Positions 1 to 5,981 of a DNA stretch of 54,197 bases are shown here, piece by piece. Below the pieces are notes generated by a model. The model was not told the DNA's origin. It ran no database searches and saw only the letters and a list, made by a program, of their open reading frames with translations. Where the stretch lies: positions 1 to 54,197 of the forward strand of contig JAFYXI010000002.1 in assembly GCA_017546245.1 (NCBI GenBank), in the 5' to 3' direction. This DNA is from Clostridia bacterium (GTDB lineage: Bacteria > Bacillota > Clostridia > UBA1381 > UBA9506). Each line of letters opens with the position of its first letter. The stretch's first letter is position 1. Both the position numbers and the translations under genes were made by a program.

Positions 1-47
1 ACGGAAAACCTTTTTGCTGATGCTCTATGTGTCTTAATCTTAGGCAT
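1..47 (-). CDS. rpmI: 50S ribosomal protein L35, N-terminal fragment
   Basis: Only the first 15 codons and part of the 16th are in the window; the gene runs off its left edge. The translated start, MPKIKTHRASAKRF, is the nearly invariant N-terminus of L35, a small basic protein of the large ribosomal subunit. A strong AAGGAG site lies just upstream of the ATG. It follows infC by 46 nt on the same strand, the usual infC-rpmI-rplT order, so rplT is expected next outside the window. Confidence 0.9.
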   Translation of the reverse strand, partial: MPKIKTHRASAKRFS

Positions 48-93
48 AACTCTGCTCCTTCCAAATGTATAATAATATTTTTTAAAAACTTAC

Positions 94-603
94 TTATTTA
101 GGCGATACAACCATGCTCATATTTTTACCTTCGAGCTTTGGCGGTTTTTCTGCTACACCGTATTCGCTTACTGCATCGCGGAAACGCTCTAATAGCTGAA
201 GTCCTAAATTACTATGATGAACTTCACGACCGCGGAAACGAACGGTAATTTTAACCTTGTCGCCACCTTTTAAAAACTTGTTGGTTTGATTTACCTTAGT
301 ATCAAAATCGTGATTGTCAATAGACGGTGAAACACGAATTTCTTTAAGACTTACTGTCTTTTGGTTTTTGCGTGCCTCTTTGTCGCGCTTTGCCAGTTCA
401 AATTTATACTTGCCGTAGTCCATGGTTTTGCACACCGGCGGTTCTGCCTTTGGCGAAATCATAACGAGGTCAAGATTTTTGTTATAGGCAACCTCGAGCG
501 CCTCTTTTGAAGACATTATTCCGAGCTGTTCACCGGTATCGCTAACAAGACGAACCGAAGCTGCGCGGATTTCTTCATTAATCAACAATTCCTGCTTACT
601 GAT
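94..603 (-). CDS. infC: Translation initiation factor IF-3, probable AUC start
   Basis: IF-3 binds the 30S subunit, prevents premature 50S joining and proofreads the start codon and initiator tRNA. The reading frame encodes about 169 aa with the IF-3 N-domain (INEEIR, GEQLG, NLDLVMISP, PPVCKTMDYGK) and C-domain (VSLKEIRVSP, KFLKGGDKVKITVRFRGRE). An ATG further upstream at 648 would add 15 residues unlike the family. The GGAGG at 613-617 instead points to an ATC (Ile) codon at 601-603, nine bases away, giving ISKQELLINEEIR. IF-3 genes are known to use rare AUU/AUC/AUA starts for autoregulation, so I place the start there. The start choice is inference; the product is certain. Confidence 0.93.
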   Translation of the reverse strand: MSKQELLINEEIRAASVRLVSDTGEQLGIMSSKEALEVAYNKNLDLVMISPKAEPPVCKTMDYGKYKFELAKRDKEARKNQKTVSLKEIRVSPSIDNHDFDTKVNQTNKFLKGGDKVKITVRFRGREVHHSNLGLQLLERFRDAVSEYGVAEKPPKLEGKNMSMVVSPK

Positions 604-648
604 GGAAAAGCACCTCCAACTTTTTATTGTAATAAGCTCTAGCCGCAC

Positions 649-677
649 AAAAAAAGCGGATAGAGAATCCTATCCGC
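649..677 (-). terminator. Leader terminator (attenuator) of infC operon
   Basis: On the minus strand an 8-bp stem (GCGGATAG/CTATCCGC) is followed by seven Ts, between the promoter at 769-797 and infC. The upstream leader segment CCTATTCG (740-747) can pair with CGGATAGG, the 5' arm of this stem, with one G-U pair, so an antiterminator is possible. Firmicutes infC-rpmI-rplT operons are controlled by an L20-binding leader that works through premature termination; this has the right position and shape. Confidence 0.75.
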
Positions 678-762
678 AAAAATACACAAACAAAAACTGC
701 TGTATATTGACCACGTTGGCTTTGCCTGGTGGTGAGAAACGAATAGGTTTCTGCTTACTGAC
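678..762 (-). promoter_or_regulatory. infC mRNA leader, probable L20-leader type
   Basis: The stretch between the promoter and the terminator stem is gene-free and structured on the minus strand: GAAAC/GTTTC can close one small hairpin and CCAC...GTGG with GGC/GCC another. Its place ahead of infC-rpmI fits the ribosomal-protein L20 leader of Firmicutes. I cannot confirm the family's conserved pseudoknot by eye. Confidence 0.5.
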
Positions 763-768
763 TAAATA

Positions 769-797
769 ATATTACCATACAAAACTAACAATGTCAA
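769..797 (-). promoter_or_regulatory. Sigma-A promoter of infC operon
   Basis: Consensus TTGACA (792-797) and TAATAT (769-774), spacer exactly 17 nt. It gives a leader of about 160 nt containing the attenuator before infC. Confidence 0.85.
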
Positions 798-815
798 TAG
801 TTTTTTAAAAAAATT

Positions 816-977
816 TTAAAGGTTTAAAACAATTTCTTCAATTTCAATTTCGTTGTAATCTGCATCTGAATCGATACATTTTCCGCAGTTGTCACAAATT
901 TTTTCGGGATTTAAATCACATTTTTCACATTCACCGCAATTTGTGCAAACTTTATCTTCTAATATGCATTCTTTCAA
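816..977 (-). CDS. 53-aa cysteine-rich small protein
   Basis: A TTG start (AGGTGA five bases upstream) opens a 53-aa frame ending in TAA. It has seven regularly spaced cysteines after Cys4: a C-x2-C-x2-C-x2-C block at residues 11-20 and a C-x2-C-x2-C block at 28-34, then an acidic, Ile-rich tail (about 36-53). The spacing suggests an Fe-S or Zn site, but no histidines are present and no function is known to me. I recall similar short Cys-rich proteins in other Clostridia near lexA, from memory only. It has its own consensus-like promoter at 999-1027, which supports it as a gene. The product is cytosolic (no signal peptide or membrane segment). Confidence 0.75.
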   Translation of the reverse strand: MKECILEDKVCTNCGECEKCDLNPEKICDNCGKCIDSDADYNEIEIEEIVLNL

Positions 978-998
978 TATTATCACCTGCCCAGACTA

Positions 999-1027
999 AT
1001 TGTATCACAAAAAAATATATTTTGCAA
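999..1027 (-). promoter_or_regulatory. Promoter of the 53-aa Cys-rich gene
   Basis: TTGCAA (1022-1027), 17-nt spacer, TACAAT (999-1004) on the minus strand; predicted start about 15 nt ahead of the TTG codon. Confidence 0.7.
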
Positions 1028-1069
1028 GCGGCGGCAAGGAGGATTTTGGGTGCTTTATCATGCCGCCGC
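1028..1069 (-). terminator. GC-rich hairpin, possible yneA terminator
   Basis: Inverted arms GCGGCGGCA/TGCCGCCGC (9 bp) enclose a 24-nt loop in an otherwise AT-rich gap. On the minus strand it follows the yneA-like gene and runs into a T-rich tract, which doubles as the promoter of the next gene. The large loop makes it an untypical terminator; it could instead be a small GC-rich insertion. Confidence 0.4.
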
Positions 1070-1106
1070 CTGATGCGGCAGGGTAGTTTAAAATGTATTT
1101 ATTGCG

Positions 1107-1409
1107 TTACCTTACAGGAATCATCAGTTCCTGCCCCATAAATATTTCGGAAGATTCCATATTATTTTCATATTTTACTTTTTCTATAAAATCACGCAAG
1201 TCCATACGTTCGGGTTTGTACGGAGCGCACAGATTCCAGAGAGTATCACCGCTTGCAACGGTTACGGTAACAAAATCAATACCGTCATCGGCTACTGCAA
1301 AAACCCCGAGACCGAATGCCATAATCATTGCCATAACCATAATTAAAAGTGTTCTGCGCTGACGGCGAGCCTTTTCGCGATAGCTTGTTCTTTTATATGT
1401 TCTTTTCAT
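1107..1409 (-). CDS. yneA: LysM-domain membrane protein, YneA-like division inhibitor
   Basis: 100 aa: a basic N-terminus (1-20), one transmembrane segment (about 21-40), then an extracellular LysM-like domain (about 47-99; VTVASGDTLWNLC and the closing MGQELMIPV). This is the architecture of YneA, the SOS-induced cell division inhibitor of Bacillus, which is also divergent from lexA. Its promoter (1465-1493) carries a LexA box between -35 and -10 and a second just downstream, so SOS control is directly supported. It probably delays septation while DNA is repaired. The symbol is by position and architecture; sequence identity in this family is low. Confidence 0.8.
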   Translation of the reverse strand: MKRTYKRTSYREKARRQRRTLLIMVMAMIMAFGLGVFAVADDGIDFVTVTVASGDTLWNLCAPYKPERMDLRDFIEKVKYENNMESSEIFMGQELMIPVR

Positions 1410-1438
1410 TTAAATCAATCCTTTCTTAATACAAATAC

Positions 1439-1452
1439 AAAACGTTTGTTCG
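1439..1452 (-). promoter_or_regulatory. LexA (SOS) box 1, yneA side
   Basis: Read on the minus strand, CGAACAAACGTTTT matches the Gram-positive box CGAAC-N4-GTTCG at all but two positions. It lies just downstream of the yneA start site. Confidence 0.75.
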
Positions 1453-1464
1453 GTTTGTGAGTTT

Positions 1465-1493
1465 ATTTTAACAGAACATTTGTACGTTGTCAA
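1465..1493 (-). promoter_or_regulatory. yneA promoter with internal LexA box 2
   Basis: TTGACA (1488-1493), 17-nt spacer, TAAAAT (1465-1470). A degenerate LexA box, AGAACATTTGTACG (1473-1486), fills the spacer, so LexA binding would block RNA polymerase. Confidence 0.75.
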
Positions 1494-1512
1494 TACTTTT
1501 TTTAATTTTTTT

Positions 1513-1552
1513 CGAACAAATGTTTGATTTTTTTGAAAAACTGTGTTACAAT
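1513..1552 (+). promoter_or_regulatory. lexA promoter overlapped by LexA box 3
   Basis: TTGATT (1524-1529), 17-nt spacer, TACAAT (1547-1552). The box CGAACAAATGTTTG (1513-1526) overlaps the -35, as expected for lexA autorepression. Confidence 0.8.
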
Positions 1553-1607
1553 ATGGTTAAAGAAAGAAAAAAGTTGTATTTAAATAAAGAATTTTTGGAG
1601 GTTCGTT

Positions 1608-2225
1608 ATGGCAAAGAGGGAGAACAGAGAACAACAGATACTTGATTTTATCAACCGACAGATTGACGATAAGGGGTATCCGCCGTCAATTCGTGAAATA
1701 TGTGCTGCGGTTGGACTTGCATCGCCTTCTACCGTTCATACCTATTTAAAAAAGCTTGAAGAAAAAGGTCTTTTGGTTAAAGATGGTTCTAAAACACGCG
1801 CAATCCGTGTGGTAGGTCCTGATGCTGAAGAGCTTGCAGAGCCGGTTGAAGAATTTTTATCTGTTCCGGTTATAGGAACTGTTGCGGCAGGTGCACCTAT
1901 TTTGGCTGAAGAAAATGTTTTAAGAACGTTTCCGCTTCCTATGGACTTTGCTAAAAATGCTGGTGTATTTATGTTAAAGGTTAAGGGCGAAAGTATGATA
2001 AATGCCGGAATTTTAGACGGTGATTTTGTTATAGTAAGTCAGCAGGCAACCGCCCGTAACGGCGATATGGTTGTAGCCTTGGTTGATGATTCGGCAACGG
2101 TTAAAACATTTTATAAAGAGAACGGATATTTTCGTCTGCAGCCTGAAAATGACACGATGGAGCCGATTATAGTTGACGAGGTAAGCATACTCGGAATAGT
2201 TGCCGGCGTGATTCGTATATATTAA
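1608..2225 (+). CDS. lexA: LexA SOS repressor
   Basis: 205 aa, normal family length. The N-terminal winged helix-turn-helix (about 1-65; PPSIREICAAVGLASPSTVHTYL) binds the SOS boxes. The C-terminal S24 latent protease carries the Ala94-Gly95 self-cleavage bond, Ser129 (GESM) and Lys166 (ATVKTF). On DNA damage RecA filaments trigger self-cleavage and derepress yneA, lexA and other SOS genes. GGAGG lies eight bases ahead of the ATG. It is divergent from yneA and only 16 nt ahead of an amidohydrolase that may be co-transcribed. Confidence 0.97.
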   Translation: MAKRENREQQILDFINRQIDDKGYPPSIREICAAVGLASPSTVHTYLKKLEEKGLLVKDGSKTRAIRVVGPDAEELAEPVEEFLSVPVIGTVAAGAPILAEENVLRTFPLPMDFAKNAGVFMLKVKGESMINAGILDGDFVIVSQQATARNGDMVVALVDDSATVKTFYKENGYFRLQPENDTMEPIIVDEVSILGIVAGVIRIY

Positions 2226-2241
2226 GGAGGAAACTGCATCT

Positions 2242-3429
2242 ATGTGTGTTGAAAATGAGATGCTGTTAAGAGCGGTTAATGATATTTCGGCAAAGCTTAA
2301 GGATATGCGCAGAGAACTGCATCAGATTCCTGAACTTGCGTTTTGCGAAGAAAAAACTTCTGATTATATATGTAAAAAATTCGACGAGACAGGTATTACA
2401 TATAAACGCGGTGTTGCAAAAACAGGAGTAGTGGCATCAATTGAGGGCAAAAATGCAACAAAAACTCTGCTTTTGCGTGCAGATATTGATGCACTTCCTA
2501 TGCAGGAGGATAAATCGCGACCTGACTGTTCTTTGCATGATGGGGTGATGCACGCTTGCGGTCACGATGCACATACGGCTGTTTTGCTGGGCGTTGCCGA
2601 GGTTCTGTGGTCTGTGCGTGACAGTCTTTCGTGCAATGTAAAGCTGGTGTTTCAGCCGGGTGAAGAGGATACGGGCGGAGCAGAGCCTATGATTTCAGAG
2701 GGAGTTTTAGAAAATCCTAAGGTAGACGCCGCATTGGCTCTTCACGTTATGAATGAGGTTGAAACCGGTAAAATAAGAGTTAAACCGGGCGCAGTTATGG
2801 CTTGCCCCGATGAGTTCGATTTAAAAATTATCGGTAAAGGCGGTCACGGGGGTTATCCTAAAGAGTGCATAAATCCTATAGAGATTGCAAGCCGCATTAT
2901 AACCGATTTTTATGCGTTGTTAGATGAGGTAAACAAACCCGACAGACCTGTTGTTATATCGGTTTGCTCAATAGATGGCGGAACTTTTTATAACATAATT
3001 CCGAACGAGGTATCAATAAGGGGAACAGTCCGTCTTTATGACAGCGAGCTGCGTAAAAAACTGCCAAATATGCTTGAAAAGATAATAAAAGATAATACCG
3101 AACGCTATGGGGCAGAGTACGAATGGGATTACAGATTTATGTTCCCACCGCTTATTAATGATGAAAAAATGTGTGATGAGTTTTCTGCTGTATGCGCAGA
3201 AATATTGGGCGAAGATAATGTGATTAAAAACGGAACACCATCTATGGCAGGCGATGATTTTGCATACTTTGCAGAAAGAGTGCCGTCGGTTTATTTTAAT
3301 CTTGGCTCGGGAAATAAAGAAAAGGGCATAACAATGCCGCTTCACGCACCTGATTTTGACATTGATGACGATTGTCTTAAAACAGGAGTTTTGGCAATGT
3401 GCGGTTATGCGTTAGGGTTTGGTAAATAA
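2242..3429 (+). CDS. M20-family amidohydrolase (N-acyl amino acid/hippurate hydrolase type)
   Basis: 395 aa. A metal-dependent hydrolase that releases amino acids from N-acyl derivatives. Metal-binding motifs of the M20D family are visible: RADIDALPM, HACGHDAHTA, QPGEED and, near the C-terminus, MAGDDFAYF with the final metal-ligand His in MPLHAPDFD. The dimerisation domain interrupts the catalytic domain around 180-290. It starts at an ATG with AAGGAGG upstream, 16 nt after lexA, and ends at a strong terminator. The exact acyl or amino acid substrate cannot be read from sequence. Control through the lexA promoter is possible but unproven. Confidence 0.9.
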   Translation: MCVENEMLLRAVNDISAKLKDMRRELHQIPELAFCEEKTSDYICKKFDETGITYKRGVAKTGVVASIEGKNATKTLLLRADIDALPMQEDKSRPDCSLHDGVMHACGHDAHTAVLLGVAEVLWSVRDSLSCNVKLVFQPGEEDTGGAEPMISEGVLENPKVDAALALHVMNEVETGKIRVKPGAVMACPDEFDLKIIGKGGHGGYPKECINPIEIASRIITDFYALLDEVNKPDRPVVISVCSIDGGTFYNIIPNEVSIRGTVRLYDSELRKKLPNMLEKIIKDNTERYGAEYEWDYRFMFPPLINDEKMCDEFSAVCAEILGEDNVIKNGTPSMAGDDFAYFAERVPSVYFNLGSGNKEKGITMPLHAPDFDIDDDCLKTGVLAMCGYALGFGK

Positions 3430-3461
3430 TATAAGTAGTTTGATTTAATATTGATAACTTT

Positions 3462-3488
3462 AAAAGGTGCGGACAATCCGCACCTTTT
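3462..3488 (+). terminator. Rho-independent terminator after the amidohydrolase
   Basis: A perfect 12-bp stem (arms 3462-3473 and 3477-3488) with a CAA loop and T-rich sequence after it. It closes the lexA-amidohydrolase unit. Confidence 0.85.
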
Positions 3489-3609
3489 GTGTTTTTGTTT
3501 GCGTTTAATTTTATATTCGCAGGGGCGGCATCCCCGACGACCTGATTGCATAAATTTTAGACTGAACGGACAGATGTGTGCATATGTCCCTGCAATTTAA
3601 ATTTTGTTT

Positions 3610-3634
3610 TGTAGGGAATGCATTTATGCATTCC
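3610..3634. repeat. Half copy of TGTAGGG two-hairpin element
   Basis: TGTAGGG followed by a 9-bp palindromic hairpin (GGAATGCAT/ATGCATTCC). The second hairpin and the CCCTACA end are missing. Confidence 0.65.
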
Positions 3635-3666
3635 GAAATATTTAAACTAGCACAAATGCTGAATAA

Positions 3667-3727
3667 TGTAGGGCACAGCGTTTACGATGTGCCGAAAAAC
3701 GGAACGTCGGAAACCGCCGTTCCCTAC
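3667..3727. repeat. TGTAGGG two-hairpin element, copy 2 (61 nt)
   Basis: Ends TGTAGGG and CCCTAC. Inside are hairpin 1 (GGCACA...TGTGCC) and hairpin 2 (GGAACG...CCGTTCC), separated by a short linker bounded by CCG and CGG. Stem sequences differ from the other copies although the plan is the same. Confidence 0.7.
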
Positions 3728-3802
3728 GATTTTATTATGTGTTTAATGTTTACAATGCCGCAGACGATACGTACGATGTAATTTATATTACGGATGGAGC
3801 AA

Positions 3803-3871
3803 GTAGGGGCAGGGCTCTGCTCTGCCCGTTTGTATCATATTATTTTTCGGGCGGATAATATCCGCCCCTAC
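3803..3871. repeat. TGTAGGG-family element, copy 3, overlapping the hsdS stop (69 nt)
   Basis: Ends GTAGGG and CCCTAC. Hairpin 1 is GGGCAGGG...CTCTGCCC, hairpin 2 is GGGCGGAT...ATCCGCCC, and the linker between is bounded by CCG and CGG. Its right end provides the TAG stop codon of hsdS (3868-3870), which suggests insertion at the gene's 3' end. Confidence 0.7.
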
Positions 3872-5012
3872 TCAAAATATTTTTGCATTAGTGCTTTTTT
3901 AAGAAGTTCTAATTTTTCAAGGCTTTTTTGTACTTCCAATTTTGATTTGTCGGTCTGTTCGACAAAAGCAATATAGTCCTTTTGTAATTCAATTGGCGGA
4001 ATAATCTGCATATATGCTTTCATAATTGCAGTATTCAAATTAGGTTGCGTTCCAGCTGGTGCTATTGCTCTAAAATGCTCTGTCATTTGATTCAACGCTT
4101 GCAATAAAAATACTTTATCTAATCTATTATCTATATTTTCCATCGCAAGCCAACCATCGTGAATACATCCATCAAAAGTAATTATTCTTGCAAATCCAAG
4201 AGAAACTCCACAATTAGCAAAGATTAAACTACCTTTTTTACTAAACGACTCTTTCTTACACCTTCTTGGATAATATGTTCTTTCGTAGCGTGCAGATAGA
4301 TATTATCACCTTTTGTTGCATCCCCAATCTTAATCCAAGGAATCGTTCCACCCAAATACTGCTCAATAGGTCTTGGAGAACCACCTCTCGAAATATCACA
4401 CAGATTGCCAAGAGGTTCAATATCCCACCCTCTATCATTTATATTTATGTCACCAAACAGTTCGACAAATCGTGCTTTGACAAGCTCGTCCATTTTTGAA
4501 AGTTGTTCTTTTCGCTTGTTAATTAAATCTGTTATTTTATCTAACTTTTCAACTATTTTCTTCTGTGCTTCCATAGGAACAAAAGGTATTTTTACACTTT
4601 TAACTATTGAAGAAGTAACAGCAGGATAGCTTGCACCTGTAGCTTGTGAAACCATATCATCTATAAAGCTTTGTGACTGGCAAAAGTAAAATATATATTT
4701 GTTCAAAACCTCTTTTTTATATCTTAAAACACAAAAGCCTGTGGACGCTACAAGAGTTTCATCAGAATTTGTATTTACCATAGCAACAGCATTCAAATTA
4801 GGTCTTACAGTTGATACTAATATGTCGCCTTGCTTTACCAGTTGCTTTGCACGGCTGGGCGCACTGCTTGCATTCAGAAGCTGCGTTGATATGATTTTTT
4901 TGCTGATATTGTTTACTGAAGAAATATCTATATATTCTATATCAAACGCATCGTTTTTCTTTAAAACATCAACAGAATTTTCACATAAATCTTTTAAACA
5001 GACCAATTCCAC
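3868..5012 (-). pseudogene. hsdS: Type I restriction specificity subunit HsdS, single frameshift
   Basis: HsdS sets the DNA target of type I restriction-modification. From the GTG at 5012 (AAAGGGG seven bases upstream) the first target-recognition domain and central coiled coil are intact (PFVPMEAQKKIVEKL..., LSKMDELVKARFVELFG). The second domain begins at SRGGSPRPIEQYLGGTIPWIKIGD and then runs out of frame after LVKK. One base back, the frame continues as GSLIFANCGVSLGF... through IPPIELQKDYIAFVEQ to KALMQKYFE and a TAG. The break is a run of six As (4234-4239 on the plus strand) where seven would restore the frame; the local sequence A-AAA-AAG is also a classic -1 slippery heptamer. No hsdM or hsdR is in the window, so it is an orphan. 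Inactive gene, phase-variable gene, slippage or sequencing error cannot be told apart here. Confidence 0.85.
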
Positions 5013-5044
5013 AACTACACCCCTTTCTTCAACAATCTATAAAT

Positions 5045-5073: not shown

Positions 5074-5173
5074 GAATTATTTACACAGTTACCTATTGTC
5101 AATTTCCTTGACTATTTACTAACATTACACATTTTCCTTAAGCAGAATATATAAAGTTGCTTTAAATTATAGC

Positions 5174-5202
5174 TTGCTATATTGGCTATTAAATACTATA
5201 AT
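5174..5202 (+). promoter_or_regulatory. mnmM promoter, very short leader
   Basis: TTGCTA (5174-5179), 17-nt spacer, TATAAT (5197-5202). The predicted start falls at about 5209, on the ribosome binding site itself, giving a leader of only about 13 nt. Confidence 0.7.
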
Positions 5203-5221
5203 TGTAATGGGAGGGAAAGCT

Positions 5222-5776
5222 ATGAGCATACTTAAAAATTGTCTGGGTTTATCTCACGAATATATAAAAAAGGTTTTAGCCGAGGGTGATACAGCTATTG
5301 ATGCCACCTGCGGAAACGGTTACGACACAGAGCTGCTTTGCAAGCTGGTGGGTGACAGCGGTCACGTTTACGGCTTTGATGTTCAAAAACAGGCGATAGA
5401 TGTCACAAAGGAAAGGCTAAAGAAGTTTAATAATGTAACGCTTATTTTAGACGGACATGAGAATATGGAAAGCTATGTAAAAGACGAGGTCAGCGCAATT
5501 ATGTTTAATTTTGGTTATCTGCCCGGTGGTGACCACGCAAAAGCTACCAAAAAAGAAACCAGCATAAGTGCAGTTGATGCAGGGCTAAGGCTTTTAAAAA
5601 AGGGCGGACTGATGACCTTGTGTATTTATTCGGGTGGAGATACCGGTTTTGAAGAAAAAGACGCAATTTTAGAATTTTTAAAAGGAATAGACGCAAAAAG
5701 CTTTTCGGTGCTTATGCATAATTTTGTTAATCAGGTGAATAATCCACCGATATTGGTGTGTATAGAAAAGAAATAA
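5222..5776 (+). CDS. mnmM: tRNA 5-aminomethyl-2-thiouridine methyltransferase MnmM (YtqB)
   Basis: 184 aa SAM-dependent methyltransferase of the YtqB family, formerly called a putative rRNA methylase. These enzymes convert nm5s2U34 to mnm5s2U34 at the wobble position of tRNAs in bacteria lacking the MnmC methyltransferase. Visible motifs are the SAM loop DATCGNGYDTE, the acidic GFDVQ, FNFGYLPGGDHA and the terminal NNPPILVCIEKK, all typical of YtqB. The ATG at 5222 has GGGAGGG upstream; an earlier in-frame ATG at about 5174 lies inside the promoter and is rejected. It works downstream of MnmE, also in this window, and is a single-gene unit closed by a strong terminator. Confidence 0.9.
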   Translation: MSILKNCLGLSHEYIKKVLAEGDTAIDATCGNGYDTELLCKLVGDSGHVYGFDVQKQAIDVTKERLKKFNNVTLILDGHENMESYVKDEVSAIMFNFGYLPGGDHAKATKKETSISAVDAGLRLLKKGGLMTLCIYSGGDTGFEEKDAILEFLKGIDAKSFSVLMHNFVNQVNNPPILVCIEKK

Positions 5777-5812
5777 AGAGCATTGTCGCAATTGCGACAA
5801 TGCTCTTTATTT
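5771..5812. terminator. Terminator after mnmM, perfect palindrome
   Basis: A perfect 42-nt palindrome centred on GCAATTGC, ending in TTTATTT. It starts within the mnmM stop region and should terminate transcription in both directions. Confidence 0.85.
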
Positions 5813-5981
5813 GGGATGGACGGAAAATAGCGCAGTACTCTTTCGAGTATCATCGGGCACTAAGAGCAAAGCATCGTTACACTCGCTTTGTCAAAGTGCC
5901 CAGTGTTACTGGACAAACTGAACCCGAAGGCGTACGTTGGTACGTCGAGAGGTGAAGTTTGTTCAAAACACAAGGCATTAT
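5813..5981. other. Structured non-coding stretch between convergent terminators
   Basis: No gene. It holds several hairpins: TACTC-TTTC-GAGTA, a larger GGGCACT...AGTGCCC structure (about 5859-5911), CAGT-GTT-ACTG, and repeat A. The core CTCTTTCGAG recurs in the hairpin-rich gap near 52375. Confidence 0.6.
5911..5964 (+). repeat. GGACAAAC...GTTTGTTC repeat, copy A (54 nt)
   Basis: Imperfect terminal inverted repeats GGACAAAC and GTTTGTTC flank GAACCCGAAGG, a GTAC-based hairpin and GAGAGGTGA. A second copy (B), in opposite orientation, is at 35225-35292. Both copies lie between convergent genes next to terminators. Confidence 0.7.

Follow-up and report, generated by a model that had tools for sequence, protein, structure and literature searches.

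The hsdS gene on the minus strand of the 54,197-nucleotide contig analysed here (the window, a stretch of Clostridia bacterium DNA) is likely a horizontally acquired orphan that lost its function recently through a one-base indel at A-rich codons, and not a gene expressed by programmed frameshifting. Its coding sequence lies in two frames that meet at A_AAA_AAG, the heptamer of the E. coli dnaX cassette in the same phase (excerpts of PMC5009743), while the closest relatives are one base longer at this site and continue in an open frame. The features on which the argument relies are as follows:

4224 to 5012, minus strand: 5′ part of hsdS with the first recognition domain, the central conserved region and the beginning of the second recognition domain (initiation codon GTG at 5012, TAA at 4226–4224, 262 aa; Methylase_S)
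3868 to 4302, minus strand: 3′ part of hsdS in the −1 frame with the remaining second recognition domain and the C-terminal conserved region (stop at 3870–3868; Methylase_S)
4233 to 4239, minus strand: A_AAA_AAG in zero-frame slippery phase, where intact relatives differ by one base (from sequence and alignment)
5020 to 5026, minus strand: Shine-Dalgarno-like AAAGGGG, 7 nt ahead of the GTG start (read by eye)
3944 to 3975, no strand assigned: inverted-repeat arm with 72% complementarity to 4440–4471, situated within the C-terminal conserved region (repeat comparison)
4440 to 4471, no strand assigned: partner arm of 3944–3975, between the two recognition domains (repeat comparison)

No single continuous frame runs through hsdS; the frame changes at 4239–4233, where the minus strand reads GTA AAA AAG GTA GTT TAA, with the six As at 4239–4234 and the G at 4233. 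In profile searches the zero-frame product of 262 aa matches PF01420 (Methylase_S) over residues 2–171 (E 1.5e-20), and the −1 frame segment 3868–4263 matches profile positions 53–163 of the same family (E 4.7e-6), so that both halves pass the family cut-off in two different frames and represent two target-recognition domains. The two frames overlap by 79 nt. The sequence-only reading had located the frame change at A-AAA-AAG in 4233–4239, and its place, coordinates and description agree with the sequence and with both Methylase_S halves; likewise, its statement that a −1 shift would restore the second recognition domain in full was borne out, since the second domain read through in this way is 76–77% identical to that of Ructibacterium over 189–190 residues. 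The read-through protein also matches the solved HsdS structures 5ybb, 3okg and 1yf2. The possibility that the second half is produced on its own as a complete domain was ruled out, because the earliest ATG, GTG or TTG in the −1 frame is the ATG at 4143, which lies inside that domain.

The three closest relatives found, with amino acid identities given for the second recognition domain, come from Pseudobutyrivibrio sp. SIG315 (L096; 86%; two relatives among 21 pattern hits), Ructibacterium gallinarum DSM 107454 (L097; 77%, the top match in 391 genomes of the class, 84 of which matched) and an IMG/VR contig (L098; 71%, one relative among 52 pattern hits). In all three the frame is open through the site, which is one base longer and without the heptamer. 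The DNA alignments to L096 and L097 contain a lone one-base gap exactly at the A run, and the alignment to L098 has gaps at the site with a net difference of one base. The residues there are V-K-A-G-S in L096, V-K-S-G-S in L097 and V-K-S-E-S in L098, to be compared with V-K-K-G-S for the window read through; the A run itself is not retained in any of the three, and an ancestral run of seven As in the window remains putative, as the relatives carry Ala or Ser codons at this place. At the DNA level the similarity to L096 and L097 ends at the central region and does not extend to the first recognition domain. The HsdS of L096 and L097 resemble that of the window in the second recognition domain, and differ from it in being open at the site and in having hsdM in the locus.

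The protein query matched its own genome alone among the four genomes of the genus (two of the others being 77% and 86% complete), two of 20 genomes in the family (its own and G014, at 21% identity), and 23 of 95 genomes in the order, its own included, the strongest others reaching 31–48% identity over parts of the query. A draw of 398 genomes from the phylum gave ten matching genomes at E<=1e-15, again with its own among them and the others at 29–35% identity. In tblastn against 7 phage and 459 plasmid records all matches stayed under 60% identity; nothing was found with the hsdS DNA in plasmids, nor with single-sequence pattern scans of genomes and viral contigs.

The idea that programmed −1 frameshifting at A_AAA_AAG yields some full-length HsdS was raised by the sequence-only reading, and the part of it that stands is the heptamer itself, which is that of dnaX and lies in the correct phase at the frame junction. 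According to excerpts of PMC5009743, A_AAA_AAG is far more shift-prone in E. coli than similar heptamers, a property tied there to a sole tRNA-Lys that reads both AAA and AAG. The window's genome differs in this respect, with a tRNA-Lys(CUU) gene (anticodon CTT) being one of the 26 tRNA genes found in it; tRNA-Lys(TTT) is absent among these 26 and is presumably missing from the assembly. Conservation of the motif and flanking stimulators, which serve as criteria in one study of such motifs (excerpts of PMC4066793), provide little that speaks for recoding. The heptamer is in phase in none of the 40 homologous loci in which the site could be aligned (one row per locus; 65 loci were given, 25 did not align across the site, and the duplicate loci L067, L080, L092 and L144 were left out; two of the 40 alignments cross a stop, namely L083 and L098, whose gene ends early and whose ORF is open across the site). 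Other in-phase heptamers occur at the site in two of the 40 (AAAGGGC in L040, AAAAAAA in L134), and in a separate homologue alignment the string AAAAAAG appears in one of 35 rows (31 loci), in L074, out of slippery phase.

Stimulatory elements were sought on both sides of the heptamer. A dnaX-type Shine-Dalgarno-like stimulator is spaced about 10–14 nt upstream. No such site stands at that spacing in hsdS, where, of the 30 nt upstream, AAGAAGGUG at −28 to −20 matches the anti-SD best; the upstream element that the sequence-only reading proposed to look for is hence missing at the usual distance. For a downstream stem, the 73 nt after the heptamer fold with −11.5 kcal/mol (z −0.39 against dinucleotide shuffles), and 66 of 200 such shuffles fold equally well or better. 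Against mononucleotide shuffles the z values are 0.26 for 40 nt, −1.66 for the 60 nt directly after the heptamer and 0.0 for 80 nt; the 60-nt stretch is somewhat better than random, and a weak structure may be present. The missing stimulator is not decisive, since excerpts of PMC4066793 name a proven −1 frameshift case in which no stimulator has been established. The constraint seen in both halves of hsdS (given below) would also suit recoding. Within the literature collection consulted, a text search for programmed ribosomal frameshifting in restriction-modification hsdS returned nothing. Taking conservation, structure, SD spacing, tRNA content and the background count described next together, programmed frameshifting was rejected as the leading view and is judged extremely improbable.

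The background count concerns how readily such a heptamer arises. In-phase A_AAA_AAG was encountered 17 times in the 15,971 codons of 53 mechanically chosen window ORFs, 16 of them outside hsdS, and about 0.03 would be expected by chance in the 26-codon overlap of the two frames. The coincidence of heptamer and frame break nevertheless carries little weight, because indels favour homopolymers and the loss of an A makes the heptamer by necessity: NNA AAA AAA GGN minus one A becomes NNA AAA AAG GN, that is A_AAA_AAG in phase, automatically. Twelve in-frame A-AAA-AAA-G strings are present in the window ORFs, and the homologue L134 (33% identity) has an intact V-K-K-G string of this type at the very same site in an open frame. 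From the sequence it is plausible that A_AAA_AAG in hsdS is a by-product of base loss. Unless conservation or stimulators accompany it, this heptamer says little for recoding when it is found where a frame breaks, since base loss creates it automatically, and the A7 Lys-Lys-Gly string is a trap for scans, as the loss of one base turns it into the dnaX heptamer in phase.

In the course of events that we favour, hsdS, now an orphan with neither hsdM nor hsdR beside it, would have arrived by horizontal transfer, and a one-base indel at the A-rich codon string would have broken it recently. The ribosome would read 262 aa and then stop, and, with no start before ATG 4143 in the remaining second domain, a complete second domain would not be made. 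The A_AAA_AAG heptamer would then be what the codon string becomes on base loss and not a recoding signal. Among the three alternatives of the sequence-only reading, whose interpretation is partly supported overall, the third, a one-base loss by mutation or by sequencing or assembly error, fits best, and hsdS is probably an ordinary broken gene, one in which the loss would be real in the organism and the state null. Orphan hsdS genes and hsdS pseudogenes are reported from other genomes, and the window gene is alike in being partnerless or broken, which implies no claim of relatedness.

The age of the break was approached with pN/pS (Nei-Gojobori-type counts), which before and after the break is 0.131 and 0.108 to L096, 0.213 and 0.305 to L097, and 0.241 and 0.199 between L096 and L097, several of these comparisons being close to saturation at synonymous sites. 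Both halves of hsdS are under similar constraint, and the values fit a break that is probably recent as well as a 3′ half that is still expressed. Alike constraint would be expected of a still-translated 3′ half too, and to this extent it counts against the broken-gene explanation. The AAAGGGG site ahead of the GTG suggests that hsdS may be expressed, which likewise counts against regarding the gene as dead.

The same constraint bears on the view that the assembly is in error, the true run being one base longer and hsdS intact. The gene has only one lesion, the lesion sits at a homopolymer, and the assembly is made of 73 contigs. Inside open window ORFs there are, however, 169 other A/T runs of at least six and up to eight, a count that is biased because an ORF interrupted by an error would appear shortened, and an in-frame A7 is preserved within hsdS at 4901–4895. 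Because of these runs and the intact A7, homopolymer errors are not general, which leaves room for a single one, and an assembly error at this place is considered unlikely. Phase variation of the homopolymer, with tract length toggling between truncated and full-length HsdS, was the second proposal of the sequence-only reading, and has a precedent in NgoAV of Neisseria gonorrhoeae, where excerpts of PMC9577141 and PMC6789123 describe a polyG tract in hsdS which switches between truncated and full-length forms of different specificities. The NgoAV hsdS1/hsdS2 pair and the window gene are alike in being an hsdS split by a homopolymer frameshift, and the break in the window does fall at an A run. 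NgoAV differs in having polyG, known length variants, hsdM in the locus and a product of 208 of 410 residues, as far as the same excerpts tell, whereas the product in the window ends within the second recognition domain. The window tract is only six As long, with no adjoining hsdM. Six As are short for a phase-variable tract. Moreover, the three closest relatives are without a run at the site, and no second allele was seen, a gapped exact pattern of the site giving 0 matches in viral contigs, the only collection to which it was applied; phase variation is thus regarded as distinctly unlikely.

Two further views concern what a truncated or switched product could do. It is very unlikely that hsdS acts as a switchable donor, in which slippage at the A6 (ribosomal, transcriptional or replicative) would give a minor full-length HsdS, the partner would lie outside the assembly and two specificities would result. 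Slippage-driven switching of hsdS would, if real, offer a compact means of altering DNA methylation specificity. Highly improbable, in turn, is a role of the 262-aa HsdS as a dimerising half-subunit, which would confer a new specificity together with an HsdM acting in trans. The first recognition domain and the central region are intact, and truncated HsdS is active in NgoAV (excerpts of PMC6789123 and PMC9577141), but the product carries a fragment of the second domain of about 70 residues, no stand-alone HsdM of the type found in the sister loci was detected in the genome, and the strong N6_Mtase match there is fused to an S domain of its own.

The orphan state of hsdS, which the sequence-only reading missed, is seen in the absence of an adjoining hsdM or hsdR. 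Two HsdM, two recombinase and one HsdR query from the loci of the relatives gave no window match at E<=1, and hsdS has no companion between its neighbours, which are an M20 peptidase gene and a divergent rRNA methylase gene. Elsewhere in the genome PF01420 occurs solely in the fused M-S gene on contig C52 (L035 3351–8821), a type I-like locus in which N6_Mtase and Methylase_S are joined in a protein of 1026 aa and an HsdR-like protein of 802 aa comes next. Apart from it, N6_Mtase has two weak matches (C36 and C61), one of them above the family cut-off. A whole-genome search did not detect a stand-alone HsdM of the sister type, the search with the sister-type HsdR led to the HsdR on C52, and the best-scoring match to the sister-type recombinase has 27% identity. 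The assembly is 96.7% complete, and a partner gene in the missing part is possible.

The GC content of hsdS is 33.9% (window 38.8%) and its GC3 is 0.259/0.235, compared with 0.325–0.378 in three neighbour genes, values which are in line with a foreign origin. The nearest relative, G002, is 90% identical in nucleotides over 1–3434 and 83% over 5148–5835, and synteny with it is lost at 3434 and 5148, to either side of the hsdS island. In G002 the flanks of the window hsdS sit on separate contigs with different neighbours, and G002, starting about 450 nt downstream of the M20 gene, continues with sequence that corresponds to contig C46 in the window's genome. As the G002 flanks are split and its continuation is found on C46, hsdS lies at a rearrangement junction. 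Positions 3454–3740 of the window consist of interspersed repeats, of which copies with 89–97% identity are located at the termini of contigs C2, C52 and C6 or close to them; they probably account for the breaks of these contigs.

As to where the gene may have come from, L096 and L097 both carry their hsdS in loci with hsdM. L096 1900–6700 is a type I locus in which a XerA-type tyrosine recombinase separates two hsdS genes of the same orientation; the second of these genes, which ends early, is the relative. Its direct-repeat pairs of 78, 53 and 38 nt (78%, 83% and 92% identity) are placed at the gene start and the domain edges and share, by eye, a GATTTGT core. From its sequence the locus resembles a system for shuffling domains. 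In both the window and L096 the second domain is flanked by an inverted repeat carrying the motif GATTTGTCG, whose arms are 70–72% complementary, and this may be due solely to conservation of the coding sequence. Recombinase-linked multi-hsdS type I loci (excerpts of PMC7394358; named examples are SpnIII and tvr) are connected to the window gene through L096 by the second domain and the inverted-repeat motif, and differ in gene content, since the window locus has neither several hsdS copies nor a recombinase and the genome offers one lone hsdS, its best-scoring match to the L096 recombinase having 27% identity. The recombinases of L096 and L098 and the direct repeats of L096, together with the shared inverted repeat, point to a recombinase-shuffled type I locus, from which the window hsdS probably derives. 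In L098 1–5488 no hsdM is among the ORFs listed, and a XerA-type recombinase stands directly ahead of an hsdS that ends early, followed by a 1105-aa ORF. By eye, this ORF resembles the HsdR of L096.
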